Origin: Chloroflexota bacterium
Lineage (GTDB): Bacteria; Chloroflexota; Limnocylindria; P2-11E
DNA: 64,000 nt
Reading direction: 5' to 3'
NCBI GenBank assembly: GCA_005883625.1
Contig: VBDU01000073.1
Coordinates: 42,644-106,643 of the forward strand
The position numbers were made by a program, and so were the translations under genes. Shown in pieces: positions 1,413 through 42,070 of this stretch; position 1 is the first letter of the stretch, and every line of letters starts with the position of its first letter. The notes beneath the pieces were generated by a model. The model was not told the DNA's origin and ran no database searches. It was given only the letters and a program-made list of their open reading frames with translations.

Positions 1413-2473
1413 GCGTAGGCCCCCGCGCCGAGCGCCGCGGCCCCGACCGCCACCAGGTCGTCCGTCCCCACCGGGACGTCGGCGAAGACCCGGCCCACGC
1501 TCCCCATCGCGAGCGGACCGATCCGCACCGGGCCGCCACGGGCCCCGCCGACGACCTCCGCGAGGCTCGTCGCGAGGGGCTGCAGGGCGTCCGGGACACC
1601 GATGAAGAGCCAGCGCTCCGGCAGCGGGCCGTCGTACCCGGCGAGCGGGGTCGCGACGCATTCGGCCCAGACGCGAGCGTCCGGCGCGAGCGTATCGCCA
1701 CGCGCGGCGAACGCGCCGCGACCGAGCCCGAACGCGCGCGTGCCGACCACGCGGCTGTCGCGGATGATCGCGAGGGACGTGACGTCCGCGCCGAGCCGCA
1801 CCACGCCGGCGTCGGTCGTCCCGGACTCCACGACGAGCCGCGCGAGCGCGTAGCTCCCCGACACCGTCGTCGCGCGGCGCCGCGCGTCGGCGACGGCCGC
1901 GAGCGCCGCGCCCGAGAGCACGAGCGGCGCGACGGACACGTCGGTATGCACCTCGACCGCCCGCCCGCGGTAGCCCACGAGCGAGGCGAGCGGCCGGCCG
2001 TCGAGCGAGAGCGCCGCGACCTCATCCCGCAGCCGCGCGGTCGCGACGCCGCGCAAGGCCGGGTCGTCCTCCACCGCGGCGCGCGCGTGCGCGGCGGCCG
2101 CCTCGTGCGCCTCACGCATCGCGCGAAGCATCTCCGCGGAGACGATCGCCGACGTCGAGTTCGCTCGCTCGAACGTCGTCCGCACGTGGAACGTGCGGAC
2201 GTCGTCGCCGTCGAGCGCGACGATCGCGCGCTCCGCGGCGCCGGAGCGCTCGGCGGCGGCGAACGCCGTCGCGAGCGCCGCCCCGACCGCGGCACGATCG
2301 GTGACGAGCCCGCCGGTCACCGCATCGGGCGCGAGCCCGGTCTCGCCGCGACCGATCACGCGCAGGCGGCCCTCGTCCGCACGGACGACGACCACGCGTG
2401 CGACCCCCGCGGCGATCTCGATCCCAGCGATCGCAGGCCCTCTGGGGGCCGCGCCCCCGCGAGGACTAGCCAC
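1409..2473 (-). CDS. Actin-like ATPase of the FtsA/PilM type
   Basis: 354 aa. The start IAGIEIAAGVARVVVV looks like the phosphate-1 strand-turn-strand of the actin/HSP70 fold and LVVESGTTDAGVVRLGADV like phosphate-2, as in PilM/FtsA. No transmembrane segment. The GTG start overlaps the end of alaS by 8 nt, and the 3' end overlaps the next gene by GTGA, so it is co-transcribed with the baseplate J-like gene; this suggests a cytoplasmic ATPase working with that membrane protein. The first ~15 codons (PRGGAAPRGP) are made by a GC palindrome, so the true start may lie slightly downstream. Function of the pair is inferred only. Confidence 0.65.
   Translation of the reverse strand: MASPRGGAAPRGPAIAGIEIAAGVARVVVVRADEGRLRVIGRGETGLAPDAVTGGLVTDRAAVGAALATAFAAAERSGAAERAIVALDGDDVRTFHVRTTFERANSTSAIVSAEMLRAMREAHEAAAAHARAAVEDDPALRGVATARLRDEVAALSLDGRPLASLVGYRGRAVEVHTDVSVAPLVLSGAALAAVADARRRATTVSGSYALARLVVESGTTDAGVVRLGADVTSLAIIRDSRVVGTRAFGLGRGAFAARGDTLAPDARVWAECVATPLAGYDGPLPERWLFIGVPDALQPLATSLAEVVGGARGGPVRIGPLAMGSVGRVFADVPVGTDDLVAVGAAALGAGAYA
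2444..2458. repeat. GC palindrome gggggccgcgccccc
   Basis: Perfect 6-bp-plus arms; one of nine such palindromes in the window. This copy lies at the alaS/ATPase gene border and is translated as the N-terminus of the ATPase. Confidence 0.6.
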
Positions 2474-5260: not shown

Positions 5261-5263
5261 GCG

Positions 5264-5533: not shown

Positions 5534-5553
5534 CTGTCGCTCACTCCCTGGTC

Positions 5554-5571
5554 GAGGGGCCTCTGCCCCTC
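5554..5571. repeat. GC palindrome gaggggcctctgcccctc
   Basis: Third copy of the palindrome family, in the short spacer before the ytxH-like gene. Confidence 0.6.
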
Positions 5572-5603
5572 GCACCCCGATTCGTCGGATTTGCACCTCG
5601 ACC

Positions 5604-7223: not shown

Positions 7224-8317
7224 CAGTCGCGGGGGGCGGTGCCCCCCGCGATTCGGCGAACCGTTCCGCCTCCGATCACGTCGTCCCCCTCGTAGAACAC
7301 CGCGGCCTGGCCAGGCGCCACGAGCGCCGGCCGGTCGAGCGTGAGGATCGCTTCGTCACCGTGCACCACGACGCGCGCGGCAAGGGGCGTGCCGCGATAG
7401 CGGAGCACGACGGTCGTCGCGAACTCGGTCGCGGGGGGCGCGTCCGCCACGAACCGCACCTCGCCGAGCGCGTACGTCGTCATCACGATCTCCTCGCGCG
7501 TCCCGACGACCGCCGCGTTCCGCTCCGGCTCGAGGCGCAGCACGTATAGCCGTTCGCCGGTCGCGACCCCGACGCCGGACCGCTGCCCGACCGTGAGCGC
7601 GCCGACACCCGCGTGCACGCCGACGGCCGCGCCGTCGAGACGCTCGACCGGCCCGGGCACGAACGCGTTCGGGGCGCGGTCGCGCACGAGGTCACGGTAG
7701 TCACCGGGGACGAAGCAGATGTCCATGCTCTCGGCTTTCGCCGCGTTCGGCAGGCCGAAGCGAGTCGCAAGCTCGCGGGTCTCGGCCTTGTCGCGGAGCT
7801 CGCCTATAGGGAGCTCGATCCGGCGCAGCTCGCGCTGACCGAGCATATAGAGCGCGTACGACTGGTCCTTGGCGCTGTCGCGCGCGCGACGCAGATGCCG
7901 GCGGCCGTCAGCGCCGGTCGTCACACGGGCGTAGTGCCCGGTCGCCAGACGTGCTCCGCCGAACTTCGCGACGACGTCACGCAGGAGCGCTTCGAATTTC
8001 ACGTGCGCGTTGCACGAGACACACGGGTTGGGGGTCTCGCCCGACGCGTAGGCGTCGACGAAACGGTCGACGACCTGCCGGCCAAAGACGTCGGCGTAGT
8101 CGAGGGCGTAGAACGGGATGCCCACGTGCGCCGCCGCGCGCCGCGCGTCTTCGCCCGCCTCGTCCGTCCCGCAGCAGCGCGGCGCGTTCGCGTCGGTGCC
8201 TTTTGGGACGAGGCGCATCCACACGCCCACCACGTCCTCGCCGCGCTCTTTGAGGAGCGCCGCCGTGAGCGAAGAGTCGACCCCGCCGCTCATCGCCACG
8301 AAGATGCGCCCGCTCAT
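7223..8317 (-). CDS. mnmA: tRNA-specific 2-thiouridylase
   Basis: 364 aa. Makes s2U34 in tRNA-Lys, -Glu and -Gln by adenylating U34 and transferring sulfur. PP-loop FVAMSGGVDSS at residues 6-16; catalytic cysteines Cys102 (NPCVSCN) and Cys201 (MDICFVPG), the counterparts of E. coli Cys102 and Cys199. Residue 99, Asp in E. coli (NPDxxCN), is Cys here, giving a third cysteine. ATG start overlaps the NifU-like stop (ATGA). It ends the cysteine desulfurase - NifU-like - mnmA operon, which would supply sulfur and possibly an Fe-S cluster. The last codons are built by a GC palindrome (7228-7250). Confidence 0.95.
   Translation of the reverse strand: MSGRIFVAMSGGVDSSLTAALLKERGEDVVGVWMRLVPKGTDANAPRCCGTDEAGEDARRAAAHVGIPFYALDYADVFGRQVVDRFVDAYASGETPNPCVSCNAHVKFEALLRDVVAKFGGARLATGHYARVTTGADGRRHLRRARDSAKDQSYALYMLGQRELRRIELPIGELRDKAETRELATRFGLPNAAKAESMDICFVPGDYRDLVRDRAPNAFVPGPVERLDGAAVGVHAGVGALTVGQRSGVGVATGERLYVLRLEPERNAAVVGTREEIVMTTYALGEVRFVADAPPATEFATTVVLRYRGTPLAARVVVHGDEAILTLDRPALVAPGQAAVFYEGDDVIGGGTVRRIAGGTAPRD
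7228..7250. repeat. GC palindrome at mnmA 3' end
   Basis: cgcggggggcggtgccccccgcg; fourth copy of the palindrome family, encoding the C-terminal residues GGTAPRD of MnmA. Confidence 0.65.
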
Positions 8318-8736
8318 CGGATCGTCAGCTTCTTCCGCTCGACCGTGGCCTCGGCCAAAGCGGTGACGTGCGCGTCGATAAGAGCGCTCCGCAGCGCGCC
8401 TATCGCTGTGAGGATGCAGCGCTCGCTCGCCGGGTCGACGTGCGCTTGCGCCTCGAGCGTCCGCAAGAGATCCGTCGCGCTGATCTGCGCGGCCTCGTCA
8501 GCGCTCCGGTGCACCGCGAGGCCCGAGAGCGCCGCCACCGCACGACGTGCTGTCTCGCAGCCGCTGATGCGGCCGGACCTCACGATCGCGCTGCTCACCG
8601 CTGGCAAGGGCTGCTGTGCGATCGGCTGATTGACGCGCGCGTCGAGCCAGGCGACGCGGCCATCTCGCAGCTCGATGCCGACGTAGATGCGACAGCCGTC
8701 CAGGGGATTCGCGTCGCTGCCGCTCCCCCTGGTCAC
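8314..8736 (-). CDS. NifU/IscU-like scaffold protein, divergent
   Basis: 140 aa between a cysteine desulfurase and mnmA, with ATGA-type overlaps on both sides. Three cysteines (Cys15, Cys60 in SGCETAR, Cys107 in SERCILTAIGALRSAL) correspond to the three cluster-ligand cysteines of IscU/NifU-N, and ISATDLLRTLEA matches the IscU helix before the third Cys. Differences: the Asp after the first Cys is missing (CRIYV instead of CGDxM) and ~19 extra residues (QPIAQQPLPAVSSAIVRS) separate Cys1 and Cys2. Assignment rests on cysteine order and context, not on overall identity; it could be a specialised sulfur or cluster carrier for MnmA. Confidence 0.6.
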   Translation of the reverse strand: MTRGSGSDANPLDGCRIYVGIELRDGRVAWLDARVNQPIAQQPLPAVSSAIVRSGRISGCETARRAVAALSGLAVHRSADEAAQISATDLLRTLEAQAHVDPASERCILTAIGALRSALIDAHVTALAEATVERKKLTIR

Positions 8737-9896
8737 ACCGTCACCGTCGCCGCGCTCCGGAGCCTCTCGACGACGCCCGGAAGGGTCGCGAGGAACGCCT
8801 CGACGTCCGCCTCCGTCGTGGCACGGCCCACCGTCACGCGGAGCGAGCCTTTCGCGAGCTCGCGATCGCGGCCGAGCGCGAGGATCACGTACGACGGCTC
8901 CGTCTCACCCGATGTGCACGCGGACCCGCTCGAAACCGCGAACCCTTCGAGGTCGAGCGCGACGATCAGGGACTCGCCCTCGACCCCGGCGATGCAGAAA
9001 TTCGCGTTGTTCGGCAGCCGTTCGGTCCGGTGTCCGTTGAGGACGGCATCCGGCACCCCCCCGAGCACGCCGTCGATGATCCGGTCGCGGAGCTTCGCCT
9101 GCCGAGCGGACTCCGTCCCGCGCCGAGCCGCCGCGAGGCGCATGGCCGCTCCGAGTCCGACGATCCCGGCGACGTTCTCGGTCCCGGTGCGCCGGCCCTT
9201 CTCCTGACCGCCCCCCGTCTGCATCGTCGCGACCGGCGTCCCGCGGCGGACGTACAGGGCGCCCACGCCCTTGGGCCCGTAGAACTTGTGCGCGTTGATC
9301 GACACGAGGTCGACGGCGATGCGCCGCACGTCGAAGTCGAGCGCGCCGACGGTCTGCACCGCGTCGGTGTGGAACGGCACGCCGCGCTCGCGGCAGATCG
9401 GTCCGATCTCCCCGATCGGCTCGATCGTGCCGATCTCGTTGTTCGCATGCATGATCGACACGAGGCCGGTGCGCTCGTCGATCTCGCGCGCGACGTCGGC
9501 GGGATCGACGCGGCCCTCGCCGTCGACACCGACCACGCTCACCCGGACATGCGCGTGCCGCTCGAGGTCGTGCGCCGTATCGAGCACCGCGTGGTGCTCG
9601 ATCGCGCTCACGACGAGGCCGTTCTTTTCGTCGCCCCGGCGAGCCTTGAGGGCACCGCGGAGCGCGAGGTTATCCGCCTCGGTGCCACCGCTCGTGAACA
9701 CGATCTCCGCCGGCTCCGCGCCGATCGCGGCGGCGACCTCCACGCGGGCCTGGTCGACGAGAGCGCGAGCGGCGCGACCCTCGGCGTAGATGCTCGAGGG
9801 GTTCCCGTGGCTCTCGCGGAGGACGCGAGCCATCGCCTCCGCGACCTCGGGGTCGACCGGAGTGGTCGCGGCGTGATCGAGATAGACGCGCTTCAC
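8733..9896 (-). CDS. Cysteine desulfurase (IscS/NifS family)
   Basis: 387 aa PLP enzyme releasing sulfur from L-cysteine as an enzyme persulfide. MKRVYLDHAATTPVDPEV start, PLP-binding Lys in SINAHKFYGPKG, persulfide Cys in SSGSACTSGETEPSYV, GGGQEKGRRTGTENV loop. GTG start at 9896; a TAGACT box lies 6 nt upstream, so the mRNA is probably leaderless. First gene of a three-gene operon with a NifU-like protein and mnmA; the likely product is thiolated tRNA and possibly Fe-S clusters. Confidence 0.95.
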   Translation of the reverse strand: MKRVYLDHAATTPVDPEVAEAMARVLRESHGNPSSIYAEGRAARALVDQARVEVAAAIGAEPAEIVFTSGGTEADNLALRGALKARRGDEKNGLVVSAIEHHAVLDTAHDLERHAHVRVSVVGVDGEGRVDPADVAREIDERTGLVSIMHANNEIGTIEPIGEIGPICRERGVPFHTDAVQTVGALDFDVRRIAVDLVSINAHKFYGPKGVGALYVRRGTPVATMQTGGGQEKGRRTGTENVAGIVGLGAAMRLAAARRGTESARQAKLRDRIIDGVLGGVPDAVLNGHRTERLPNNANFCIAGVEGESLIVALDLEGFAVSSGSACTSGETEPSYVILALGRDRELAKGSLRVTVGRATTEADVEAFLATLPGVVERLRSAATVTV

Positions 9897-9913
9897 GGAT
9901 AGAGTCTAGGTCG
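9897..9913. promoter_or_regulatory. 17-bp divergent promoter region with overlapping -10 boxes
   Basis: TAGACT on the minus strand (9908-9903) is 6 nt from the desulfurase GTG; TAGAGT on the plus strand (9900-9905) is 8 nt from the YcaQ-like GTG. The boxes overlap by 3 bp. Any -35 elements must lie inside the opposite gene. Confidence 0.6.
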
Positions 9914-11125
9914 GTGAGCGCGCGGGAACGGCCCGTCATCACGCTCCGTACCGCGCGCCGCCTGGCGGTGCGCGCGCAGGGCCTCGACCGCGTTCCGAAG
10001 CGCGCCGACGCGAGCGCGATCCACCGCACGGTACAGCGCATCCGGTGGCTGCAGCTCGACCCGACCAGCGCGGTCGCGCCCAGCCACCTCCTCGTCCTCT
10101 GGAGCCGGCTCGGCCGCTACGACGTCGCGACGCTCGAGCGGGCGATCTGGAAGGAGCATCGCCTCTTCGAGCACCGGGCGTTCATCTATCCGACAGCGGA
10201 CCTGCCGCTCTACCGCCACGGCATGCGCACGTACCTGCACCGCCCGACCCCGTGGACGGCTCGCGCCCGGACGTGGGTCGCCGCCAACCCCGCGCTCCGC
10301 CGCCACGTCATCGACCGCCTCCGGCGGGACGGGCCGCTCCCGACGAGCGCGTTCGAAGACCGGTCGGTGATCGGCTGGCATTCGTCCGGCTGGACGCACG
10401 AGCGCAACCCGAGCCAGATGCTCGAGATCCTTTCCGGCACCGGCCGCGTCCTGGTCGCGGGACGAGCGAAGGGCCAGCGTCTCTGGGACCTCGCCGAGCG
10501 CGTCCTGCCGGCCACGGCGCTCGACACCCGCGCCGAGACCGGTCCTCTCGCCGCGAACGCGGCGGCGGAGGCGCTCCGGGCCCTGGGCATCGCGACGCGC
10601 GACCAGATCCGCGACGTCGTCACGTATTGGATGCGGCGGGATCTCGACGCCACGCTCGCGGCGCTCGTTCAGGCCGGGCGGATCAGCGAGGTCGAGGTCC
10701 GCGGCGAGGACGGACCGCTGCCGGGCCAGTGGTTCATCCGCGTCGCGGACCTGCGCACCGCGCGCGCGGTCGATAGACGGTGGCGCGGACGCACGACGCT
10801 GCTCTCGCCGTTCGACAACCTCATCCGCGACCGGGTGCGGACGCAGGCGCTCTTCGGGATGCGCGTCGTTCTCGAGATCTACACGCCCGAGGCCAAGCGC
10901 CGCTGGGGCTACTTCGTCATGCCCGTGCTGCGCGGCGACGCGCTCGTCGGGCGCGTCGACCCGCGCTTCGATCGAGCGCGCGGCGTGCTCGAGGTCCGCG
11001 CGCTCCACCTCGAGCCGGGCGTGCGTCTCGACCCGGCGTTCCGGCGCGACCTCACCGCCGCGCTGAGGGATCTCGCGCGGTTCCTCGGCGGCACCCTCCG
11101 CACGCCCCTCCCCGCGCCGCGTTAA
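9914..11125 (+). CDS. YcaQ-like winged-helix DNA glycosylase family protein
   Basis: 403 aa. Matches the winged-helix family of E. coli YcaQ/AlkX, crosslink-repair glycosylases: ITLRTARRLAVRAQGL start, WLQLDPTSAVAPSHLLVLWSRLG with the QxD motif reported as catalytic in YcaQ, LFEHRAFIYP and the C-terminal LLSPFDNLIRDR...IYTPEAKRRWGYFVMPVL. GTG at 9914. Divergent from the desulfurase gene with a 17-bp gap; the stop overlaps the convergent hydrolase by 4 bp. Substrate is inferred from the family. Confidence 0.8.
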   Translation: MSARERPVITLRTARRLAVRAQGLDRVPKRADASAIHRTVQRIRWLQLDPTSAVAPSHLLVLWSRLGRYDVATLERAIWKEHRLFEHRAFIYPTADLPLYRHGMRTYLHRPTPWTARARTWVAANPALRRHVIDRLRRDGPLPTSAFEDRSVIGWHSSGWTHERNPSQMLEILSGTGRVLVAGRAKGQRLWDLAERVLPATALDTRAETGPLAANAAAEALRALGIATRDQIRDVVTYWMRRDLDATLAALVQAGRISEVEVRGEDGPLPGQWFIRVADLRTARAVDRRWRGRTTLLSPFDNLIRDRVRTQALFGMRVVLEIYTPEAKRRWGYFVMPVLRGDALVGRVDPRFDRARGVLEVRALHLEPGVRLDPAFRRDLTAALRDLARFLGGTLRTPLPAPR

Positions 11126-11994
11126 CCGGCGAGCTCCTCCCACACCGCGAGCGAGAGCTGCGCGAGCGCGCGGTCGTCGTCGACGTTGTCGCGCACGAGC
11201 TCTCGGGCGAAGATCGCGACCGCGTACGCGCCGTTCGGCGCGTACACCACGCCGACGTCGTTGCGGACCCGGCGGTACGACCCGGTCTTGTGCGCGACGA
11301 CGGTGCCCTTCGGCAACAGGCCGGGGAGGCGCGTCCCGCTCTGGATGCGCTCCATGAGCGCGAGGATGGCGTCGCACGACGGCGGATCGAGGATCTCCTT
11401 GCGCGCGAGCAGCTCGAGCAGGCGGCACATGTCGCGCGGCGAGCTGCGATCGGCCTGCGCCGGGATCACCGAGCGCCCGCCGGTGCCGTGGGACGCGCGG
11501 AGCTTCGCGCGCAGCTCGTCGTACCCGCCTGGCTTGGAGTGGTCCATGTCGACGAGCTCCATGAGCATCTCGCGAATCCCGAAAGGGATGCGGATGCTGC
11601 GCAAGCCGTAGCGGCCCATCGCGGCCTCGACGCGTCCCTTCCCGACACGCTCGAGCAGCAGGTCGGTCGCGGTGTTGTCGCTCACCGACATCATGAGGAC
11701 CGCGAGGTCGCGCACCGTCGGGTCAAGCCCGGCGTCGAGGTACTGCAGGACGCCGGACCCGGCGACGCGAGTGCCCGCGTCGTAGCGCACCCGCTCGGTG
11801 AGATCGAGCCGTCCCGCGAGCGATTCCTCGTACATCGTCACGAGGAGCGGCAGCTTGATGACCGAGGCCGTCGGGAACAGCTCGTCCTCGCGGACCCCGA
11901 TGTGTCTCCTGGTCGTCAGGTGCGTCGCCGAGACGCCGACGATGCCGATGTCGCGAGCGAGCGAGTCGAGCCGCCGCGCGGACGCGTCGATCAG
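11122..11994 (-). CDS. Class A beta-lactamase-fold serine hydrolase
   Basis: About 290 aa. Shows the penicillin-recognising triad SxxK (TASVIKLPLL), SDN (SVSDNTATDLLLERVG) and KTG (HKTGSYRR). No ExxLN motif can be seen in the omega-loop region, so the deacylating Glu of true class A enzymes seems absent; antibiotic hydrolysis should not be assumed. No signal peptide or TM is visible. No ATG/GTG/TTG fits the conserved start; a CTG at 11994, overlapping the aspS TGA (CTGA), would give 290 aa. The 439-aa ORF in the track extends into aspS in another frame. Likely translated from the hisS-aspS transcript. Confidence 0.7.
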   Translation of the reverse strand: MIDASARRLDSLARDIGIVGVSATHLTTRRHIGVREDELFPTASVIKLPLLVTMYEESLAGRLDLTERVRYDAGTRVAGSGVLQYLDAGLDPTVRDLAVLMMSVSDNTATDLLLERVGKGRVEAAMGRYGLRSIRIPFGIREMLMELVDMDHSKPGGYDELRAKLRASHGTGGRSVIPAQADRSSPRDMCRLLELLARKEILDPPSCDAILALMERIQSGTRLPGLLPKGTVVAHKTGSYRRVRNDVGVVYAPNGAYAVAIFARELVRDNVDDDRALAQLSLAVWEELAG

Positions 11995-13769
11995 GCGCGC
12001 TTCTCCGGCTGCGCGACCACGCGCAGGCCGAGCTCGTCGAGCAGCTTCGCGTCGACGGCCGCCGGCGCATCGAGGAGCGGGTCGTATCCGGTCTGCGTCT
12101 TGGGGAACGACTGCACCTCGCGGATGTTCTCGGTGCCCGCGAGGGTCATGCAGAGCCGGTCGACCCCCGCCCCGACGCCGCCGCTCGGCGGCGCGCCGTA
12201 CTCGAGCGCGTCGAGCAGCGCGCCGAAGCGCGTCGCGGCGTCCTCCTTCGAGACCCCGAGCTGCGCGAAGACGCGCTCCTGGACGGCGCGCTGATAGATA
12301 CGGACGCTCCCGCCAAAGATCTCCTTCCCGTCGATCACGAAGTCGTACTGCTTCGACTTCGCCTTCTCCGGATCGGTATCCAGGAGCGCGATGTCCTGCT
12401 CCGTCAAGGGTGCGCAGAACGGGTTGTGCGAGAACGTCCACCCGCCCTCGGGGGTGCGCTCGACGAGCGGGAAGTCCGTGATCCAGAGGGCGTAGTGCTT
12501 GGCCGTGTCGGCAAGCCCGAGCTCCGGGCCGAGCCGCTCGCGAACGACGCCGAGGGACACGCTCGCCGTGTGGTACGTGTCGGCCACCGCGAGTGCGAGA
12601 TCACCGTCCCCGGCTTTCGTGGCGGCGCGGATCGCGGCGATCTCGCCAGGGGTGAAGAACTTCGCGACCGGCGAGCGCACCTCGGTGCCCGCGAACGCGA
12701 ACGAGACCAATCCCTTCGCTCCTTTCGTCTTTGCGAGAGCCTGCCAGCCGTCGATGTCCTTCCGCGTCGCGTCCGCCTTGCCGGGTACGACGAGGCCGCG
12801 CACGGCGCCCCCTGAATCGATGACCGAACGGAAGGCGTTGAAGCCCGTGCTCCGGAGCGCGTCGGTGAGGTCGACGAGCTCGATCGCGAAGCGCAGGTCG
12901 GGCCGGTCGATCCCAAAGCGGCGGATCGCCTCTTCGTAGGTCATCCGCGGCACCGGCGTTTTCGCCAGCGGCTTGCGCGCGAACATCCGGAAGATCTCGG
13001 TGTAGAGACCCTCGAGCGTCGCCATGACGTCTTCCCGATCGACGAAGCTCATCTCGAGGTCGAGCTGCGTGTGCTCGTACACGCGGTCGGCGCGCGGGTC
13101 CTCGTCGCGGTAGCAATGGGCGATCTGGAAGTACTTGTCGAGGCCGCCGACCATCAGGATCTGCTTGTATTGCTGCGGGGACTGCGGCAGCGCCCAGAAC
13201 CTCCCGGGGTAGTAGCGGGACGGCACGATGAAGTCGCGCGCGCCGGTCGGGTCGGAGCGGATCAGCGTTGGCGTCTCGATCTCCCAGAAGCCGCGCTCGA
13301 TGAGATGTCGGCGGATGTACGCGACGACCTCGTGGCGCAGGCGCATGAGGTCCTTCGACCGCTCCCGCCGCAGATCGACGTAGCGGTATTTCCAGCGGAG
13401 GTTCTCGTCGACCTCGGTCTCCTCGTTCACGTAGAACGGCGGCGTCTTCGATGCGTTGAGGACCGTCACCTCCGTCGCGACGACCTCGACCTCGCCCGTG
13501 GCCAGCCTCGGATTCTTCGTCCCTTCGGGCCGCGCCCGCACCGTCCCGCGGACCCGCAGCACCCACTCGTTGCGGGCGTCGCCGAGAGCTGCGTGCGCCG
13601 CGGCGTTCTCTTTTTCGTGCGCGACGACCTGCGTCAGGCCATAGCGGTCGCGCAGGTCGATGAACGTGAGCTGGCCATGATCGCGCCGCCGGTGGACCCA
13701 GCCGCAAAGCGTGACCTCCTTGCCCGCGAGCGACGCGCTCGCCTCCCCGCAGGTGTGCGTGCGCAGCAT
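11991..13769 (-). CDS. aspS: Aspartyl-tRNA synthetase, predicted non-discriminating
   Basis: 592 aa, bacterial type with the GAD insertion. OB domain WVHRRRDHG, motif 2 YRDEDPRADR...QLDLEMSF, motif 3 GGVGAGVDRLCM. Residues 31 and 83 are His and Gly, the pair associated with non-discriminating AspRS in Pseudomonas aeruginosa, so it may also charge tRNA-Asn for amidation by GatCAB (not in the window). ATG at 13769 directly follows the hisS TAG; GAGAAGGAA within the end of hisS can serve as ribosome binding site. Confidence 0.96.
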   Translation of the reverse strand: MLRTHTCGEASASLAGKEVTLCGWVHRRRDHGQLTFIDLRDRYGLTQVVAHEKENAAAHAALGDARNEWVLRVRGTVRARPEGTKNPRLATGEVEVVATEVTVLNASKTPPFYVNEETEVDENLRWKYRYVDLRRERSKDLMRLRHEVVAYIRRHLIERGFWEIETPTLIRSDPTGARDFIVPSRYYPGRFWALPQSPQQYKQILMVGGLDKYFQIAHCYRDEDPRADRVYEHTQLDLEMSFVDREDVMATLEGLYTEIFRMFARKPLAKTPVPRMTYEEAIRRFGIDRPDLRFAIELVDLTDALRSTGFNAFRSVIDSGGAVRGLVVPGKADATRKDIDGWQALAKTKGAKGLVSFAFAGTEVRSPVAKFFTPGEIAAIRAATKAGDGDLALAVADTYHTASVSLGVVRERLGPELGLADTAKHYALWITDFPLVERTPEGGWTFSHNPFCAPLTEQDIALLDTDPEKAKSKQYDFVIDGKEIFGGSVRIYQRAVQERVFAQLGVSKEDAATRFGALLDALEYGAPPSGGVGAGVDRLCMTLAGTENIREVQSFPKTQTGYDPLLDAPAAVDAKLLDELGLRVVAQPEKRA

Positions 13770-15146
13770 CTATTCCTTCTCACCGTCTCCCAGGTACGGG
13801 CCCTCGCCGGCCGCGCCGGGCTCGTGCTCGTCCGGGTTCGGGCCGGACTCCAGGCGCGGCTTGGGGCGCTTGGGCACGTGGCGGCCGACCTCGACCACGA
13901 CCGCGGCGAGCCGCGTGACGCGCTGCACCTTCTTGGCGAGGTCGCGCACGATCACGTTCCCCCCGCGCGCCTCGGGCGTGCCTCGGATGACCGCGACCTT
14001 CGCGCCGTGCTTCACCGCGCTCTCGAGCTGGCGCTCGAGCGAGCGAGTCGAGTAATCGATCGCCACGCTGAAGCCCGCCTCGCGGAGTGGCCCCGCGAGC
14101 TGAAGGCGGTCGGCGCCGTCGTCGGACTGCGCCGAGAGGACGTAGACGTCCGCGCGAGGCTCCTCGGCCACGGCCACCCCCTGCTCCTTGAGCGCGTAGT
14201 ACAGGACATCGACCCCGCCCGCGATACCCACCCCGGCCGTGTCCGGGCCGCCCATCGTCCGCACGAGCCCGTCATAGCGGCCGCCCCCGGCGACGGCGAT
14301 CTCGCCCGCCTTCGTGAACGCCGGGTTCGTGAGGTGGCACTCGAAGACCGTGCGGGTGTAGTAGTCGAACCCTCGGGCGAGGCGCTCGTCGACCTCGTAG
14401 GCCACACCGAGCCGGTCGAGCCCGTCGACGACCGCGGCGAAATGCGTCTTGTCCGCGTCGCTCACGAGATCCCGGAGCTTCGGCGCTCCCTGCGCGATCT
14501 TGCGGTCGTTCGGGTTCTTGCAGTCGAAGATCCGCAGCACGTTCGAGTCGAGCCGCGCCTTGCAGTCGTCGTCGAGCTCCGCGCGGTACCGCTCGAAGTA
14601 TTCCTTGAGAGCCTGGCGGATCTTCGGCTGGGCGGCGGTCTCGCCGACCGTGTTCACCTTGAGCGTGTACTCGGTGAGCCCGACCTCGGCGAGCAGGGCC
14701 GCGGTGAACTCGATCTGCTCGAGGTCCGCCCCCGGCTCGGCCGCGCCGTAGCATTCGAGGCCCCATTGCCAGAACTGCCGATAGCGCAGGAGCTGCGGCC
14801 GCTGCCCGCGGAACATCGGCTCGAAGTAGAAGAAGCGCTGGGGCTGCGGGGAGCGGTGCAGCCCGTGCTCGAGGTAGGCGCGCGTGACGGCGGCCGTGCC
14901 CTCCGGCCGCAGCACGAGCCCCCCGGCACCGTGCAGCGACACCTCGAGCATCTCCTTGGTGGCGACGTCGCTCGTCTCGCCGACGGCCCGCAGGAACACC
15001 TGCGCGTCCTCGACGATCGGCGTGCCCAGTCGCGGGTAACCGTACCGGAGAGCACGCGCCTGTATGACGGCCTGGAGAGCGTCGAAGGCGGCCGCCTCCG
15101 CGGGAAGCAGGTCCCGCATCCCGCGCGGGGCCTGGTAGGTGGGCAT
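13770..15146 (-). CDS. hisS: Histidyl-tRNA synthetase
   Basis: 458 aa from ATG at 15146 (MPTYQAPRGMRDLLPAEA); the ORF track start at 15332 runs into the promoter region and the divergent gene. Class II motif 2 FRGQRPQLLRYRQFWQ near residues 112-127, HisA motifs ARGFDYYTRTVFE and GGGRYDGL, C-terminal anticodon-binding domain. A ~30-residue Pro/Glu/Gly tail (RPKPRLESGPNPDEHEPGAAG) extends past the usual end. First gene of hisS-aspS; -10 TATCGT lies 9 nt before the ATG. Confidence 0.96.
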   Translation of the reverse strand: MPTYQAPRGMRDLLPAEAAAFDALQAVIQARALRYGYPRLGTPIVEDAQVFLRAVGETSDVATKEMLEVSLHGAGGLVLRPEGTAAVTRAYLEHGLHRSPQPQRFFYFEPMFRGQRPQLLRYRQFWQWGLECYGAAEPGADLEQIEFTAALLAEVGLTEYTLKVNTVGETAAQPKIRQALKEYFERYRAELDDDCKARLDSNVLRIFDCKNPNDRKIAQGAPKLRDLVSDADKTHFAAVVDGLDRLGVAYEVDERLARGFDYYTRTVFECHLTNPAFTKAGEIAVAGGGRYDGLVRTMGGPDTAGVGIAGGVDVLYYALKEQGVAVAEEPRADVYVLSAQSDDGADRLQLAGPLREAGFSVAIDYSTRSLERQLESAVKHGAKVAVIRGTPEARGGNVIVRDLAKKVQRVTRLAAVVVEVGRHVPKRPKPRLESGPNPDEHEPGAAGEGPYLGDGEKE

Positions 15147-15214
15147 GGGACGCTGACGATAGCGTCGGGGGTCCGAGGGGGCAGCGCCCCCTCGATCACC
15201 GCTATCGTCATCGC
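15147..15214. promoter_or_regulatory. Symmetric divergent promoter hisS / cyclophilin
   Basis: gacgatagcg (15155-15164) and cgctatcgtc (15202-15211) are perfect inverted copies, each carrying TATCGT pointing outward, 9 nt from the hisS ATG and 6 nt from the cyclophilin ATG. A GC palindrome gagggggcagcgccccctc (15175-15193) lies in the middle. Confidence 0.6.
15175..15193. repeat. GC palindrome between hisS and cyclophilin gene
   Basis: gagggggcagcgccccctc; fifth palindrome copy, at the axis of the symmetric promoter region. Confidence 0.7.
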
Positions 15215-15763
15215 ATGAACCGTCGCTCGTTCCTCGCGACCCTTGCGACGTCCTGCGTGGCCGTCGCCTGCGGCGGGAGCGCGGCGCCGACAGGAGGTAC
15301 CGCCACGAAGTCACCGAGTCCGAGCCCCACACCCGGCCCCGCCGCGAACAAGGCGACCGTCGAGCTCGCGAAGGGCGGCTCGTTCACGTTCACGCTGCGG
15401 CCCGACAAGGCGCCGCAGACCGTCGCGCGCTTCGCGCAGAAGTCGCGCGCCAGCTTCTACGACAACCTCACGTTCCATCGGGTCGAAGACTGGGTCGTCC
15501 AGGGCGGCGACCCGCTCGGCAACGGGACCGGGGGCGGCAAGGTGCCCTCGGAGTACAACGACCTGCCGTTCGTCCTCGGCGCCGTCGGGATCGCGCGCGG
15601 TCAGGACCCCGCGATCAACAACGATTCGCAGTGGTTCGTCGTGAAGAAGGACTCGTCGTTCTTGAACAACCAGTACACGAACTTCGGGCTCGTGACCGCC
15701 GGGATGGACGTGATCATGGGCATCAAGATCGGCGACCGCATCAAGTCGATCAAGATCGAGTGA
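15215..15763 (+). CDS. Cyclophilin-type peptidyl-prolyl isomerase lipoprotein
   Basis: 182 aa. MNRRSFLATLATSCVAVACGGS is a lipoprotein signal with lipobox VAVAC, followed by a Pro/Ser/Thr linker (SPSPSPTPGPA) and a short cyclophilin domain (FYDNLTFHRVEDWVVQGGDPLGNGTGGG, NNDSQWFVVKKD). It should act outside the membrane on folding proteins. ATG probably leaderless. The stop overlaps the next gene by GTGA. Confidence 0.9.
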   Translation: MNRRSFLATLATSCVAVACGGSAAPTGGTATKSPSPSPTPGPAANKATVELAKGGSFTFTLRPDKAPQTVARFAQKSRASFYDNLTFHRVEDWVVQGGDPLGNGTGGGKVPSEYNDLPFVLGAVGIARGQDPAINNDSQWFVVKKDSSFLNNQYTNFGLVTAGMDVIMGIKIGDRIKSIKIE

Positions 15764-16536
15764 CCGAGGGCGGCCCGCCGCTGACGACGCGCGGCTCGCT
15801 CGCCATCGTCGGCGCGTTCGCCTCGTTCGTCGCGCTCGCGCTGCCGCTCGACCGCGCGACCACTCCCGAGCAGCAGCTGCTCCTCTCGTTCGCGGCATGG
15901 ACCTTCCTCGCGATCGCGCTCGCGCTTCAGCCGGCCGCGATCCGCGCGCAGGTCCTCGCCCTCGTCGCGCTCGCCACCGTGCTCGAGTGCGTCGGCTCGC
16001 TCCTCTGGGGCGCGTACGCGTACCGCCTCGGCAACCTTCCGCTCTACGTCCCTGCGGGCCATGGCCTCTTCTACCTGTCCGCGCTCCGCGCGGCGTCGCT
16101 GCCGTTCCTCGCGCGCCACTCGCGCGTGGTCGTCGTGACGGTGACCATGGGCGCGACGGCCTGGATGCTTCGCGGGCTCGTCGCCGGGCCGCTGCCCGAC
16201 CTGCTCGGCTTCGTCACCTGGGCGATCTTCGTCCGCTTCATCGTCCGCGGCCGTTACCCGCTGCTCTACGCCGTGAGCTTTGCCATGACGACCGCCCTCG
16301 AGCTCTACGGCACCGCGCTCGGCATCTGGCGCTGGGCGCCGGTCCTGCCCGGGCTCATGCTCCCCGCCGGCAACCCGCCCACCGGCATCGGCGCGGGCTA
16401 CGCGGCGATGGACGCGCTCACGCGACGGCTCGTCGCACGCGCGCGAGCGGCACGGCGCGCGCCGACGACCGCAGATACAGCGGATGGCGTGGCGCGCCCG
16501 CTCGCGTCACTCCAAGACAGCGCAGCCGTCGACTGA
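15760..16536 (+). CDS. Conserved integral membrane protein, unknown function
   Basis: 258 aa from GTG at 15760, chosen for the GTGA overlap with the cyclophilin stop. About seven to eight membrane segments (LAIVGAFASFVALALPL, LLLSFAAWTFLAIALAL, ALVALATVLECVGSLLWGAYAY and others), then WRWAPVLPGLMLPAGNPPTGIGAGYAAMDALTRRL, a W/NPP motif at the membrane edge. No family recognised. The last ~40 codons overlap the convergent DUF1643 gene by 119 bp and are low in hydrophobicity. Confidence 0.6.
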   Translation: MTEGGPPLTTRGSLAIVGAFASFVALALPLDRATTPEQQLLLSFAAWTFLAIALALQPAAIRAQVLALVALATVLECVGSLLWGAYAYRLGNLPLYVPAGHGLFYLSALRAASLPFLARHSRVVVVTVTMGATAWMLRGLVAGPLPDLLGFVTWAIFVRFIVRGRYPLLYAVSFAMTTALELYGTALGIWRWAPVLPGLMLPAGNPPTGIGAGYAAMDALTRRLVARARAARRAPTTADTADGVARPLASLQDSAAVD

Positions 16537-16906
16537 GGCGGCGCGCGAGCTCAGTGCCCCGCGAGCCGACCGCGGGATCAGCGCCCCAGGCGGCGACGAC
16601 CAGCGACGCGCGGCCCGCGGCCCGCGCCAGGTGCGCGACGTTCTCCGGACCGACGGGGTCGCGCGTGTACCGCAGGCGGCGGGGGTCCGTCGCACGGAGC
16701 GCGAACAGGTTCACGACCTCGATCCCGCCGTAGCCCCAGCGCCGGGCGAAGCCGATGCAGCGGCGGATCGTCGGGTCGTCGCGCCGCGCGTCGGCCGTCG
16801 AGGGATTGAGCATCACGAACGCGACGACCGGCAGGGAGCGCTCCCAGCGCCGCCAGAGCCGATAGCGGTACCGACCATCGCGGCTGAAGACCGCGCCCCC
16901 GGTCAC
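16418..16906 (-). CDS. DUF1643 family protein
   Basis: 162 aa from GTG at 16906 overlapping the M20 stop (GTGA). FSRDGRYRYRLWRRWE, VVAFVMLNPSTADARRDDPTIRRCIGFARRWGYGGIEVVNLFALRATDP is the DUF1643 signature; such proteins are small, soluble and uncharacterised. The 3' part runs under the convergent membrane-protein gene (16418-16536). Confidence 0.85.
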   Translation of the reverse strand: MTGGAVFSRDGRYRYRLWRRWERSLPVVAFVMLNPSTADARRDDPTIRRCIGFARRWGYGGIEVVNLFALRATDPRRLRYTRDPVGPENVAHLARAAGRASLVVAAWGADPAVGSRGTELARRLSRRLRCLGVTRAGAPRHPLYLRSSARAVPLARVRRAVA

Positions 16907-18246
16907 GCGAGGAAGCCTCGCGCGATCTGCACCCAGAGCTCGGTCGAGAGGCGCAGCGACTCCTGGTCGACGTGCTCGTCGTTGCCGTGGAACATGCTGA
17001 AGAGCTTGTCGAACGGGATTCGTTCGCTCATGAGCCCGAACCCGTACCCGACCACCCCCTCCGGCCGTAGGAAGCGCGCGTCGGTCGCCGCCGGGAAGAT
17101 GTAGGGGACGAGCCGCGCGTCCGGCACGAGCTTCGCGGAGACCTGGGCGATGACCTCGTAGAGCGGCGTGTTCGTCGGCGAGACGGTCGCCGCGCGGTCG
17201 ATCTCGCGGACGATCTCGCACTCGCGCCAGAGGTCTCCGATCGCGTGCGCGAGCATCCGGTGCACGTCGTCCCGCGACTCTCCGGGCAGCTTGCGGATGT
17301 CCACCTGGATCTCCGCGGTGTCCGCGATGACGTTGATCTTCACGCCGCCGTGCAGCACCGTAGGCGCGATCGTCGTGTGGGTACAGCCGTGGATGAAGCG
17401 CGCGATCCCGACCGGCAGCGTCGGAAGCACACGCTCGAGCACGCGCGCGCTCGTGAGTGCGCGCCGCGCCGGCCAGGAGAGCCCGGCGCCCTCCACGAAG
17501 AGTCGCCACACCTCGTGGATCCGCGCCGGGGGCCGGAAGATCGCAAGCCGGTGGACGATCTCTGCCGCCTTGACGACGGCGTTGTCCGTGCCGTAGGGCA
17601 TCGACGCGTGCGCTGGCGAGCCCTTCACGCGAAGCAGGAGCCCCGCGCCGCCCTTCTCCGCGACCATGATCGGCAGTCGCGGCCCGCCGCGACCGAACGG
17701 CAGGCGCGCGCCGCCCATCTCCGTGATCACGTAGTCGGTCTTGATCGCGTCCGGCTCGTGCGCGACGAGCCACTCCACGCCGTACACGCCGGCCGCCTCC
17801 TCGTCGGCGACCGCGGCGTACACGAGCGTCCCGCGCGGCCGGAAACCGCTCGCCAGCAGCCGTCGCAGCGCGACGGCCATGGAAGCGGTGAGATTCAGCA
17901 TGTCCACGGCGCCGCGTCCCCAGACGACGCCGTCCTCGAGCGTCGCCGCGAACGGATCGTGCGTCCACCCGTCCGGGTTCACCGGCACCACGTCGGTATG
18001 TCCCATGAGGAGCAGGCTCGGCGCCTTCGGGTCGCTCCCCTCGAGCCGCACGACCAGGCTTTCGCGGCCGGGCAGCGCGGCGAACCGGCGCAGCGTGACG
18101 CCCGGCGCGTGGAGGTAGTCCTCGAGAAGATCCGCGCTGCGGGACTCGTGGCCGGACTCGGGCGTCCCGTCGTTCACGCATTCGTTGCGGATGAGCCGCT
18201 GGAGAAGGTCGGTGACCTCGGCGGTGGGATCGGCGGCCACCATCAC
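16903..18246 (-). CDS. M20 family metallopeptidase
   Basis: 447 aa zinc peptidase/deacylase. Ligand motifs: GHTDVVPV, WGRGAVDMLN, VADEEAAGVYG (Glu pair), EMGGARLP region and a C-terminal FHGNDEHVD; a lid/dimerisation domain begins near VAEKGGAGLLLRVKGSPAHASMPYGTDN. The extra ~60-residue segment with WRLFVEGAGLSWPARRAL is typical of the longer CPG70/PepV-like members. ATG at 18246 has CAGGAG within the end of the upstream lyase gene. Substrate unknown. Confidence 0.88.
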   Translation of the reverse strand: MMVAADPTAEVTDLLQRLIRNECVNDGTPESGHESRSADLLEDYLHAPGVTLRRFAALPGRESLVVRLEGSDPKAPSLLLMGHTDVVPVNPDGWTHDPFAATLEDGVVWGRGAVDMLNLTASMAVALRRLLASGFRPRGTLVYAAVADEEAAGVYGVEWLVAHEPDAIKTDYVITEMGGARLPFGRGGPRLPIMVAEKGGAGLLLRVKGSPAHASMPYGTDNAVVKAAEIVHRLAIFRPPARIHEVWRLFVEGAGLSWPARRALTSARVLERVLPTLPVGIARFIHGCTHTTIAPTVLHGGVKINVIADTAEIQVDIRKLPGESRDDVHRMLAHAIGDLWRECEIVREIDRAATVSPTNTPLYEVIAQVSAKLVPDARLVPYIFPAATDARFLRPEGVVGYGFGLMSERIPFDKLFSMFHGNDEHVDQESLRLSTELWVQIARGFLA

Positions 18247-18256
18247 GCGGCCGCGG

Positions 18257-19696
18257 TCACTCCTGCACGCCGCCTTTCGTCATCGGGAGCGGATCGAGGA
18301 TGCGTCGCAGGTCCGCCTCCGGCATGACCTTCTCCTCGAGCGCGACGTCGAGGAGCGAGCGCCGCTCCCCGAGGGCGCGCTTCGCGAGCGCGGCGGCCCG
18401 CGCGTAGGTGATGTGCGGCGACAGCGCCGTGACGAGGAGCGACGGGCTCGCGTCGATCAGCTCCTTCGCGCGATGCTCGTCCACGCGCATCCCCTCGACG
18501 CACTTTGTGCGCAGCTGCCGCACCGCGTTCGTGAGGATCGTCGCCGAGAAGCAGACCGCGTAGTTGATCCCCGGCATCATCACGTTGAGCTCGAGCTGTC
18601 CGGCCTGCGCGCCCCACGCGACCGTCGTGTCGTTCCCGATGACCTGGAAACAGACCTGGTTCACCATCTCCGCGATCGCGGGGTTCACCTTGCCCGGCAT
18701 GATCGAGGAGCCCGGCTGGACCGCCGGAATCGAGATCTCGCCGAAGCCGGTCCGCGGGCCCGACACGAGCAGCCGGATGTCGTTGCAGATGCTCGACACC
18801 TCGATCGCCGCGGTGCGCATCCCGCTCGAGATGCGGACGAACGGCGCCATCGACTGCATCGCGTAGAAGAGGTTCTTCGCCGGGGCGATCGGTTCGCCGT
18901 ACTCGTGCGCGAGCAGCTCGCACACGCGCTTGCTGAACGCCGGATCGACGTTCAGGCCCGTCCCCACCGCGCTCCCGCCGATGCCGAGCTCCATGAGCTC
19001 GGTCCGCCCTGCCCGCAGCCGTGCGGACGCGCCGCGCACGCGGTCCGCCCATCCCGAGAACTCCTGCCCGAACGTGACCGGCACCGCGTCCTGCAGGTGC
19101 GTGCGGCCCGGCTTCACGACACCGGCGTACTGCTTCGCCTTCTCGTCGATCGCGCTCGCGAGCTTGTCCAGCTCCTCGCAGAGCGGCTTCGTCAGCTCGA
19201 GCGCGGCGAGGCGCATTGCCGTCGGCGTTGCGTCGTTCGTCGACTGCGCCATGTTCACGTCATCGTTCGGGTTCACGTGCTCGTACGTGCCGAGCCCCCC
19301 GCCGCAGATCTGGTTAGCGCGATTGGCGATGACCTCGTTCACGTTCATGTGGAACGAGACACCGGCACCCGAGTGGAAGACATCGACAACGAATTGATCC
19401 ACGTGCTTCCCCTCGAGGATCTCGTTGCACGCTCGGATGATCGCGTCGCGTTTCTTCGCGTCCAAACGTCCGCTGACGCCGCCGTTCGCGACCGCGGCGA
19501 CGCGTTTGATGCGAACGAACGCCCGTATGAACGCGGGAAAGGCGCGATACCCGCTGATCGGATAGTTCTCGATCGCTCGCTGGGTCTGCGCGCCCCACAG
19601 GGCGTCGGCGGGGACGTCGATCTCGCCGAGCGTGTCACGCTCCCTCCGAGTGCTCCGTCCGGGGGGCTGCGCCCCCCGAGGACCCCCCCCGATCAC
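18257..19696 (-). CDS. Aspartate ammonia-lyase / class II fumarase family lyase
   Basis: About 460-479 aa. Signature GSSIMPGKVNPAIAEMV, catalytic region GRTHLQDAVPVTFGQEF, substrate loops HSGAGVSFHMNVNEVIANRA and HVNPNDDVNMAQSTND. LGEIDVPADALWGAQTQRAIENYPISG is shared by both enzymes; the STND loop and VNPND leans to aspartase but His in GRTHLQD is fumarase-like, so the reaction (fumarate with ammonia or with water) is not settled. Only a GTG at 19696 is in frame upstream; homologues start ~17 residues later, and the extra codons come from a GC palindrome and the first tandem repeat. Confidence 0.88.
   Translation of the reverse strand: MIGGGPRGAQPPGRSTRRERDTLGEIDVPADALWGAQTQRAIENYPISGYRAFPAFIRAFVRIKRVAAVANGGVSGRLDAKKRDAIIRACNEILEGKHVDQFVVDVFHSGAGVSFHMNVNEVIANRANQICGGGLGTYEHVNPNDDVNMAQSTNDATPTAMRLAALELTKPLCEELDKLASAIDEKAKQYAGVVKPGRTHLQDAVPVTFGQEFSGWADRVRGASARLRAGRTELMELGIGGSAVGTGLNVDPAFSKRVCELLAHEYGEPIAPAKNLFYAMQSMAPFVRISSGMRTAAIEVSSICNDIRLLVSGPRTGFGEISIPAVQPGSSIMPGKVNPAIAEMVNQVCFQVIGNDTTVAWGAQAGQLELNVMMPGINYAVCFSATILTNAVRQLRTKCVEGMRVDEHRAKELIDASPSLLVTALSPHITYARAAALAKRALGERRSLLDVALEEKVMPEADLRRILDPLPMTKGGVQE
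19661..19677. repeat. GC palindrome upstream of lyase gene
   Basis: ggggggctgcgcccccc; sixth palindrome copy, next to the 20-bp tandem repeats. Confidence 0.65.
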
Positions 19697-19740
19697 CCAG
19701 GACCCCCCGCGATCACCCAGGACCCGCCCCGATCACGAAG
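19681..19740. repeat. Three tandem 20-bp repeats
   Basis: Units gaccccccccgatcacccag, gaccccccgcgatcacccag and gacccgccccgatcacgaag follow each other without gaps between the divergent lyase and korA genes, ending one base before the korA -10 box. Confidence 0.8.
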
Positions 19741-19741
19741 T

Positions 19742-19747
19742 TACAAT
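19742..19747 (+). promoter_or_regulatory. korA -10 element TACAAT
   Basis: TACAAT is 12 nt before the korA GTG; the transcript would have a leader of only a few bases. The 20-bp tandem repeats occupy the -35 and upstream region. Confidence 0.5.
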
Positions 19748-19759
19748 AGTCATTCCGAC

Positions 19760-21697
19760 GTGCAGAAGAACCAGTTGACTTGGATGATCGGAGAACCCCA
19801 GGGAAGCGGCATCAACGCATCCGCCGAAGTGTTCGCGAAGGCCTGCTCGCGCGCCGGGCTGCGCATCTACGCGAACATCGAGTACCACTCGAACATCATG
19901 GGGAAGCACTCCTTTTATCGCGTTCGCGTGGGCGACGAGGACGTGCGCTCGTACCGGGACAAGACCGACATCCTCGTCGCGCTCGATCACGAGACGCTCG
20001 CCGGCGACGGCGATCACCGCCGCTGGCCGACGCACTACGGCCACCTCCACGAGGTGAACGAGGGCGGCGGCGTCATCTACGACGGCGAGATCGGCTTCGA
20101 CATCGCCGGGGGGCGGACTGATCTCCATTTCCGCGCCGTCCCCTTCATGGAGCTCATCAAGAAGGCCCTCGAGGAGGTCGGCAAGGGCGAGCAGGCGCGG
20201 CGCTACGAGGTCATGAAGAACACCGTCGGCCTCGGCGCGTCCCTGGCGCTCTGCGATTACCCGTTCGACCTCGTCGCCGAGGTCATCCGCTCGCAGTTCA
20301 AGGGCAAGCGCTCCGAGGTCGGCGAGCTCAACGTGCGCGCCGCGCGCCTCGCGTTCGAGTACGTGAAGGAGCACTTCGACACCTCGAAATTTCCCTACAC
20401 GCTGAAGCCGTATCCGGAGCCCAAGGCGCGGATCGTCGCGAAGGGCTACGAGATCCACGCGATCGCGAAGCTCAAGGCGGGCTGCGCGTTCCAGACCTAC
20501 TACCCCATCTCTCCGGCGACGGACGAGAGCGTCTTCCTCGAGCGGCAGCAGCGCGACTACAACCTCCTCGTCGTGCAGTGCGAGGACGAGATCAGCTCGA
20601 TCAACATGGCCGTGGGTGCGGCGCACATGGGCGTGCGCGCCTCGACCGCGACGAGCGGTCCGGGCTTCGCGCTCATGGTCGAGGGCATCGGCTTCGCCTC
20701 GATCACGGAGGCGCCCGGGCCCGTGCTCATCCTCTACCAGCGCGGTGGCCCGTCGACGGGCATGCCGACGCGCCAGGAGCAGGGCGACCTCCAGTTCGCG
20801 CTGCACCCCGCCCAGGGGGACTTCCCGCACCTCGTCATCGCCCCCGGCGACCTGCGCGAGTGCTACCAGGACACCTTCTCCGCCTTCAACTGGGCGGAGC
20901 GCTACCAGATGCCGATCATCGTGCTCTCGGACAAGAAGCTCGCATCGGTCTACACGACGATCGACAAGCTCGAGCTCATGTACGACCAGATCGACCGTGG
21001 CGAGATCTTCACGGGGAGCGAGTGGACGCCGGTCGCGGCGAAGGGCCCGAACGACCAGGGGACCCAGGCGCCCGGCCACAACGGGAACGGACACAAGCTC
21101 GACCTCGCGAACGTGAAGGAGTACCTCCGCTACGCGCTCACCGACGACGGCATCTCGCCGCGCTCGCGGCCGGGCGTGAAGGGCGGCCGCTTCTGGGCGA
21201 CGACCGACGAGCACGACCCCGACGGGCACATCACCGAAGGCGTCGAGATGCGCATGGCGATGATGGAAAAGCGGATGGGCAAGCTCGCGCTCGTGGCGAA
21301 GGCCATCCCGCGGGACCAGCAGTACTTCCTCCACGGGCCGAAGGACGCCGAGCTCACCGTGCTCGCGTGGGGCTCCACGAAGGGCACGGTCCTGGACGCG
21401 CTGAAGGTCCTCGAGGCGCAGGGGAAGAGGATCAACTACCTGCAGTGCCGGCTCATGAAGCCGTTCCCCGCGGAGGCCGTGGGCAGGATCCTCCGCGAGG
21501 CGAAGCGCATCGTCTCGGTCGAAGAAAATTACTCGGGGCAGCTCGCGCAGCTGGTGCAGGAGCACACCGGCGTGATGATCACGGAGCGCGCGAACAAGTT
21601 CGACGGGCGCCCGTTCAGCGAGGACGAGATGGTGCGCGCGCTCTCGCGGGTGTACGACGGCGCGAAGGCCGAGCCGGTGGTGACGCATGTCCGTTAG
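19760..21697 (+). CDS. korA: 2-oxoacid:ferredoxin oxidoreductase, fused gamma-alpha subunit
   Basis: 645 aa from GTG at 19760; the 1170-aa ORF in the track is the same frame extended back through the lyase antisense. N-terminal gamma domain with TWMIGEPQGSGINASAEVFAKACSR; alpha (pyrimidine-binding) domain with KAGCAFQTYYPISPATDESVFLE, CEDEISSINMAVGAAHMGVRASTATSGPGFALM; C-terminal transketolase-like domain (VLAWGSTKGTVLDALKVLEAQG). Forms 2-oxoglutarate- or pyruvate-type synthase with KorB, linking a 2-oxoacid, CoA and ferredoxin. The insert TQAPGHNGNGHKLDL looks like a linker. korB starts 11 nt before its stop. Confidence 0.92.
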   Translation: MQKNQLTWMIGEPQGSGINASAEVFAKACSRAGLRIYANIEYHSNIMGKHSFYRVRVGDEDVRSYRDKTDILVALDHETLAGDGDHRRWPTHYGHLHEVNEGGGVIYDGEIGFDIAGGRTDLHFRAVPFMELIKKALEEVGKGEQARRYEVMKNTVGLGASLALCDYPFDLVAEVIRSQFKGKRSEVGELNVRAARLAFEYVKEHFDTSKFPYTLKPYPEPKARIVAKGYEIHAIAKLKAGCAFQTYYPISPATDESVFLERQQRDYNLLVVQCEDEISSINMAVGAAHMGVRASTATSGPGFALMVEGIGFASITEAPGPVLILYQRGGPSTGMPTRQEQGDLQFALHPAQGDFPHLVIAPGDLRECYQDTFSAFNWAERYQMPIIVLSDKKLASVYTTIDKLELMYDQIDRGEIFTGSEWTPVAAKGPNDQGTQAPGHNGNGHKLDLANVKEYLRYALTDDGISPRSRPGVKGGRFWATTDEHDPDGHITEGVEMRMAMMEKRMGKLALVAKAIPRDQQYFLHGPKDAELTVLAWGSTKGTVLDALKVLEAQGKRINYLQCRLMKPFPAEAVGRILREAKRIVSVEENYSGQLAQLVQEHTGVMITERANKFDGRPFSEDEMVRALSRVYDGAKAEPVVTHVR

Positions 21698-41713: not shown

Positions 41714-42070
41714 CTACGACGACTGCTGCGACTTGATCCGTTCGCGCGCCTCGCGCATCTCCCGGTCGAAGGCCGTCTCCCCCTCACTCGCAGGGGGAGA
41801 ACCCCCTGCACCCCCCCCGGTTGCAGCGGGCGAGGACACGCCCGCTGCCGGGGGCTGCGCCCCCGAGCCCACGGACGGTGTCTGCTTCGCTGCGGCGTCG
41901 ATCAGCTTGTCGGCGTTCAGGAACTCCTCGCGCAGCTCGTCGGAGGTCCGGCGGAGGTCGCCGACCATGCGCCCGAGGTCGCGCGCGACCTTCGGCATGC
42001 GCTCCGGTCCGAGCACGATGAGCGCGATGACGAGCAGCAAGAGCAGCTCGCCAGTCCCGATGCCGAACAT
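41714..42070 (-). CDS. Twin-arginine translocase TatA/TatB-type subunit
   Basis: 118 aa. N-terminal TM GTGELLLLLVIALIVLGPERMP; GPERMP is closer to TatB than TatA (GPKKLP). Amphipathic helix RDLGRMVGDLRRTSDELREEF, then a low-complexity linker (GSGAQPPAAGVSSPAATGGGAGGSPPASEG) and a charged end FDREMREARERIKSQ. The linker is encoded by two GC palindromes. ATG overlaps the pyrF stop (ATGA). Confidence 0.88.
   Translation of the reverse strand: MFGIGTGELLLLLVIALIVLGPERMPKVARDLGRMVGDLRRTSDELREEFLNADKLIDAAAKQTPSVGSGAQPPAAGVSSPAATGGGAGGSPPASEGETAFDREMREARERIKSQQSS
41790..41809. repeat. GC palindrome inside Tat linker
   Basis: gcagggggagaaccccctgc; seventh palindrome copy, in frame inside the Tat gene. 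Confidence 0.6.
41850..41864. repeat. GC palindrome inside Tat linker
   Basis: gggggctgcgccccc; eighth palindrome copy, same core as at 19661. Confidence 0.65.

Follow-up and report, generated by a model that had tools for sequence, protein, structure and literature searches.

A G-tract-headed hairpin family that probably disperses like repetitive extragenic palindromes in Chloroflexota

The spread of repetitive extragenic palindromes (REPs) is usually attributed to RAYT transposases. In general, REPs are mobile palindromes of 20–40 bp that occur in many copies, mostly outside genes and near gene 3′ ends. Published REPs mostly fall into GTAG- and CGTC-tagged superfamilies, and for the CGTC-tagged class no transposase is known (PMC3733652). 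Both classes lie mostly downstream of genes, and their in-gene members include copies in replication, repair and tRNA-synthetase genes (PMC3733652). A hairpin family described here from a Chloroflexota bacterium agrees with the general picture in the size of the unit (about 25–35 bp), in number (136 copies), in its placement largely between genes or close to stop codons, and in its mobility, which is seen at the species level as empty sites. The family is probably a dispersing miniature DNA element with REP-like behaviour and is spread by a trans-acting enzyme other than a recognisable Y1 transposase. This reading is based on the copy count relative to a control, patchy counts among congeners, a covarying stem, a GGGG head, species-specific tails, empty sites in relatives, in-frame inserts and enrichment at gene borders. 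A literature search found no description of the present hairpin family.

The window (the whole stretch of DNA that was analysed, 64,000 nucleotides) has a G/C hairpin at all nine places for which the preliminary description had claimed GGGGGC-NNN-GCCCCC copies (Table 1). Only six of these fit exactly; the remaining three are more loosely related and have a 4-nt loop. Dinucleotide shuffling predicts 0.02 exact GGGGGCNNNGCCCCC matches, whereas six are present, at 2444, 7232, 15177, 19662, 41850 and 42081; a count that high did not arise in any of 100 shuffled sequences. Across the 3.19-Mb genome, GGGGGCNNNGCCCCC occurs exactly 136 times, as opposed to once for a reversed control pattern. The proposed repeated GC palindrome family is thus borne out by the genome-wide count that had been suggested, which lies far above chance. 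Chance base composition was ruled out by the dinucleotide shuffles together with the reversed control. The exact search imposes a 3-nt loop and undercounts degenerate copies; variants with a 4-nt loop exist beside the exact copies. Head/tail asymmetry, species-specific copy number, empty sites in relatives and copies within genes had been missed in the preliminary description. In the secD–pyrF gap, a separate perfect hairpin (GCAGCGGGCG-AGGACA-CGCCCGCTGC, 41823–41848) is flanked by two family copies. Elsewhere in the window (48900–54334), three tandem paralogous genes of ~1.8 kb each share 66–88% identity in parts.

Table 1 Copies of the hairpin family in the window
Feature	Position	Strand	Structure and context
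Exact copy	2444..2458	not assigned	Intergenic, flanked by the alaS stop (2466) and a gene of unknown function; aligned relatives without hairpin
Variant copy, 4-nt loop	5159..5180	+	CCCGGGGGG-CTCG-CCCCCCGGG; immediately 5′ of alaS ribosome-binding site
Variant copy, 4-nt loop	5553..5572	not assigned	CGAGGGGC-CTCT-GCCCCTCG; immediately 5′ of YtxH-like gene; aligned relatives without it
Copy within last mnmA codons	7227..7251	-	11-bp stem; missing in relatives
Element copy	15167..15194	+	Head GGGGG 15167–15171; stem-loop 15174–15194 = CGAGGGGGC-AGC-GCCCCCTCG; between hisS and cyclophilin-type isomerase gene
Copy with 8-G head	19660..19691	-	Near annotated N-terminus of AspA/FumC-type lyase
Variant copy with G-run head, 4-nt loop	41790..41809	-	GCAGGGGG-AGAA-CCCCCTGC; secD–pyrF gap
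Exact copy	41849..41865	-	secD–pyrF gap
Exact copy within last pyrF codons	42081..42096	-	11 nt before gene end

Oriented alignment of the copies reveals an asymmetric unit composed of an unpaired 5′ G-tract, a stem-loop and a short 3′ tail. The head is an unpaired cGGGGG followed by YC or similar, and the first stem arm ends in GGGGGC; a loop that is mostly R-N-A or R-N-C and the GCCCCC arm come next. The head contains GGGG in 92/118 copies, as opposed to ~4% of random positions, a chance level that is roughly doubled by the use of the head in setting the orientation. At the foot of the stem, two base pairs vary among GC, CG, AT and TA; they form pairs in ~80% of copies, compared with 37–45% when partners are shuffled (z 9–11), and compensatory changes preserve the stem. 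The tail differs between species. In this genome, GAC falls within the first six bases in 36/49 copies, while a RAYYGCT-like tail is found in 22/39 copies of the congener G007 and 14/41 of G005, the latter also having a AGTTCTTGG-like tail in 7/41. Tails in other species are CARCTCG-like (G002) or contain TGCGA (G023). The presence of common sequence outside the palindrome, in head, loop and tail, indicates that the copies derive from one another. It is highly improbable that each hairpin instead arose on its own, by local mutation (template switching or slippage) in a genome of 70% GC, rather than by copying. The high GC content and the tandem hairpins in priA described below, with changed stem bases, suggest that some local remodelling does take place, but such an origin does not fit the motifs held in common outside the palindrome. 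It is also at odds with the density of G-hairpins, which reaches 178 per Mb in G007 and shows no marked excess in the sampled congeners G001, G004 and G008, and with tail motifs that are common to unrelated loci of one species and missing in its sister, which is largely what is seen. Copies also occur in tandem and inverted groups. In G007 (L209, ~7849–7905), an element and ~27 nt of flank are duplicated in tandem with a 42-nt period, and in G005 (L131) two copies with identical flanks lie 352 nt apart.

Like the GTAG REPs and REPINs that accompany RAYT in E. coli and Pseudomonas (PMC3733652, PMC3116915, PMC2817692), the present units are asymmetric hairpins of 20–40 bp in many copies, patchily distributed and close to gene ends, with some in genes. 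In contrast to those repeats, which have an unpaired GTAG (or GYRG-type) motif at one end, GTAG is absent from the head side of all 151 copies, which carry the G-tract head instead. An exact GTAG adjoins the stem in 0/49 copies of this genome; in the tail, GTAG was seen in 3/10 copies from G014 and G023, which belong to two other genera. The CGTC REPs (dRS3, RPE-4/RPE-6; PMC3733652) are similar in having no known dedicated transposase, short unpaired tails, and copies inside genes for replication/repair and for tRNA synthetases. Their unpaired end motif is CGTC (TGTC, CCTC); here, however, GACG (CGTC reversed) is found in the tail of only 14/49 copies of this genome, 2/41 of G005 and 5/39 of G007. 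The stem differs as well: the CGTC class has an 8–9-bp stem, AT foot pairs and a 4–5-nt loop, whereas the foot pairs here are mostly GC and the loop is 3 nt, a length imposed by the search pattern beside which 4-nt variants exist. The GTAG-23 repeats of Thermomicrobium roseum (PMC3733652) are GC-rich palindromes from the same phylum (Chloroflexi), but they are GTAG-tagged and clustered at few loci, whereas the present family is dispersed and has a G-tract tag. Since its tags, loop and stem rules differ from those of the GTAG and CGTC classes, the family is placed in neither superfamily, despite its like behaviour and location.

Placement relative to genes was assessed on 758 kb of the genome with home-made gene calls from a simple 3-periodic Markov model (706 genes, 89% coding). 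In this sample, 28 of the 49 exact copies fall between genes, compared with 10.6% of bases (binomial p 2e-15), and these copies lie a median of 16 nt from the nearest gene border, compared with 101 nt for random intergenic positions. The stop codon is at most 45 nt away for 12 of the 21 in-gene copies. The preliminary placement of nearly all window copies within ~30 bp of a start or stop agrees with this enrichment, except for the copies at 41790 and 41850, which lie more than 30 bp from any gene end. The further statement that the palindromes add codons to gene ends is correct for mnmA and pyrF, which are extended at their C-termini, and wrong for the supposed ATPase N-terminus, as the gene at 19661 encodes an aspartate ammonia-lyase/fumarase-type lyase. 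Several proteins end in element-encoded tails such as SGGSAPRPP. Strong hairpins near stop codons, with the G-head pointing along transcription in 28 of 43 direction-defined copies (a weak bias), are also in keeping with transcription terminators or mRNA-stabilising 3′ hairpins, that is, host elements kept at gene ends through their action in RNA. This explanation is unlikely, given that copies are also found near start codons and inside the PriA and IleS reading frames, that the same genes in sister species lack the hairpins, and that some congeners have 0–1 copies. In addition, the T-tract terminator matches found in positions 1–20000 include none of the window copies at 2444–19678, and the aligned copies have no T-run. 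An Rfam search for known RNAs gave no match.

Copy number varies widely among the eleven species of the genus, with 136 copies in this genome, 68, 49, 48, 9 and 1 in five others, and 0 in the remaining five. The 68 copies of G007 stand against 0–1 in each of G004, G006, G008 and G009, which are ~82% identical to it over the compared syntenic stretch, and the 49 copies of G005 against 9 in G003 at 87% identity over the stretch compared. Another genus of the same family has 53 copies. Within the class, searches with the asymmetric-loop pattern gave more than one copy per genome only in this family, and other families had none or a single copy. The relatives are fragmented assemblies throughout. 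Among ~85,000 species genomes, a set that may not include the present genome, the exact head, stem and tail variant CGGGGGCCGGGGGGCNNNGCCCCCCGAC was matched in three Chloroflexi MAGs and one Roseovarius MAG. The Roseovarius match (NZ_JAGPVV010000356.1, L044 2057–2084) is the sole exact match outside the Chloroflexi MAGs; it may represent a related family in Alphaproteobacteria, a wrongly binned contig or coincidence.

Orthologous sites are mostly empty in sister species. Four window copies (2444, 5159, 5553 and 7227) lie in a 6.4-kb stretch whose synteny is kept throughout the genus, and the inserts at 2444, 5553 and 7227 are missing from aligned relatives. G005 has an insertion of its own, of ~34 nt between gtcta and cgtcagg, at a position where four other species have none. 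Site 5159 is mixed: a different family member is present in G005 and a GCAGGGG-type hairpin in G004, G007 and G009, and none is evident in G001. A by-eye count from alignments of 14 G005 copies with an orthologous G003 site gave 12 sites without a comparable hairpin, one with a different hairpin and one common degenerate copy. No target-site duplication is visible at these 14 paired sites. The junctions are usually sharp on the tail side and blurred on the head side; because of this blurring at 73–87% identity, movement is seen between species rather than between strains.

Some of the in-gene copies alter conserved proteins. Three tandem hairpins give PriA, the replication-restart helicase, 24 extra residues in this genome (the RGAKPPDMGAKPPSTRGAKPPD region), located between the cysteine motifs CPAC and CHRC. 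At the same place, PriA of G007, from a different clade, has a single-copy insert of seven residues (RGAEPPD), and seven other species have no insert in that loop. Because these other species are empty there, the preferred reading is that the two genomes gained copies in parallel in a loop that tolerates them. IleS has a 10-residue N-terminal insert in this genome only among the species compared, and a thrS-like gene of G005, identified by eye, shows an in-frame 27-nt difference (L130 site). Together, the PriA, IleS and congener thrS-like inserts illustrate the toleration of such insertions by essential proteins.

A search for the mobilising enzyme yielded no candidate. The Y1_Tnp (RAYT/TnpA-type) profile matched in 0/28 genomes of the family, while the same search was positive in 5/14 control genomes. 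For Y2 (IS91-type) transposases there was no match, the control genomes being likewise silent. No transposase gene enclosed by a close pair of copies, as in a REPtron-like arrangement, was evident when translations were read by eye. Ordinary REPs spread by a RAYT transposase that was recently lost or lies in unassembled sequence would account for the REP-like size, asymmetry, placement and tandem or inverted groups, and the assemblies are indeed incomplete. This account is quite unlikely in view of the Y1_Tnp result and the lack of a GTAG tag. The four Y1-negative genomes G000, G002, G005 and G007 are 92.5, 87, 91 and 76% complete, and the chance that random incompleteness explains the absence from all four is ~0.0002.

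The relatedness of the copies, the conservation of the hairpin and its presence or absence between species are observations, from which we infer transposition of a dispersing REP-like element. Its copies would arise by duplicative transposition of the single-stranded hairpin. In the most likely route, an enzyme acting in trans, and not a recognisable Y1 (RAYT/TnpA) transposase, would recognise the hairpin with its G-tract and insert it without target duplication. Copies would then persist chiefly at positions where the damage is small: immediately after stop codons, in narrow gaps between genes, and in loops of proteins, to which they add Gly/Ala/Pro-rich residues in frame. The bias toward gene ends may reflect survival, target choice or both. 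The lack of a transposase candidate and the local remodelling of hairpins into tandem arrays are counterpoints to dispersal. We also put forward, tentatively, that a REP-like family has been expanding without any Y1/RAYT, moved by an unrecognised enzyme or by a host replication/repair route, and inserting repeatedly at the same PriA site. With 0 to 136 copies between congeners and no RAYT in 28 genomes, the spread of the transposase-less, CGTC-like class becomes directly testable. Sister species at 82–87% identity (in one syntenic region) that differ by 68 versus 0–1 and 49 versus 9 copies are natural experiments.

A separate observation concerns alaS (2466–5135, minus strand), which has an apparent non-standard start codon at 5133–5135. 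The match to the profile TIGR00344 begins at profile position 2, at a point of the gene far 5′ of the first ATG (5012). The codon at ribosome-binding-site spacing is ATA here and in G005, ATC in G001, ACG in G010 and CTG in G004, G006, G007, G008 and G009. Possibly, this is a regulated, IF3-sensitive start by analogy with the AUU of infC; a literature search found nothing on such an alaS start. Immediately 5′ of the alaS ribosome-binding site (~5140–5190; L104, L105, L106), several species have a hairpin of differing type, which in G000 and G005 is a copy of the G-tract element.
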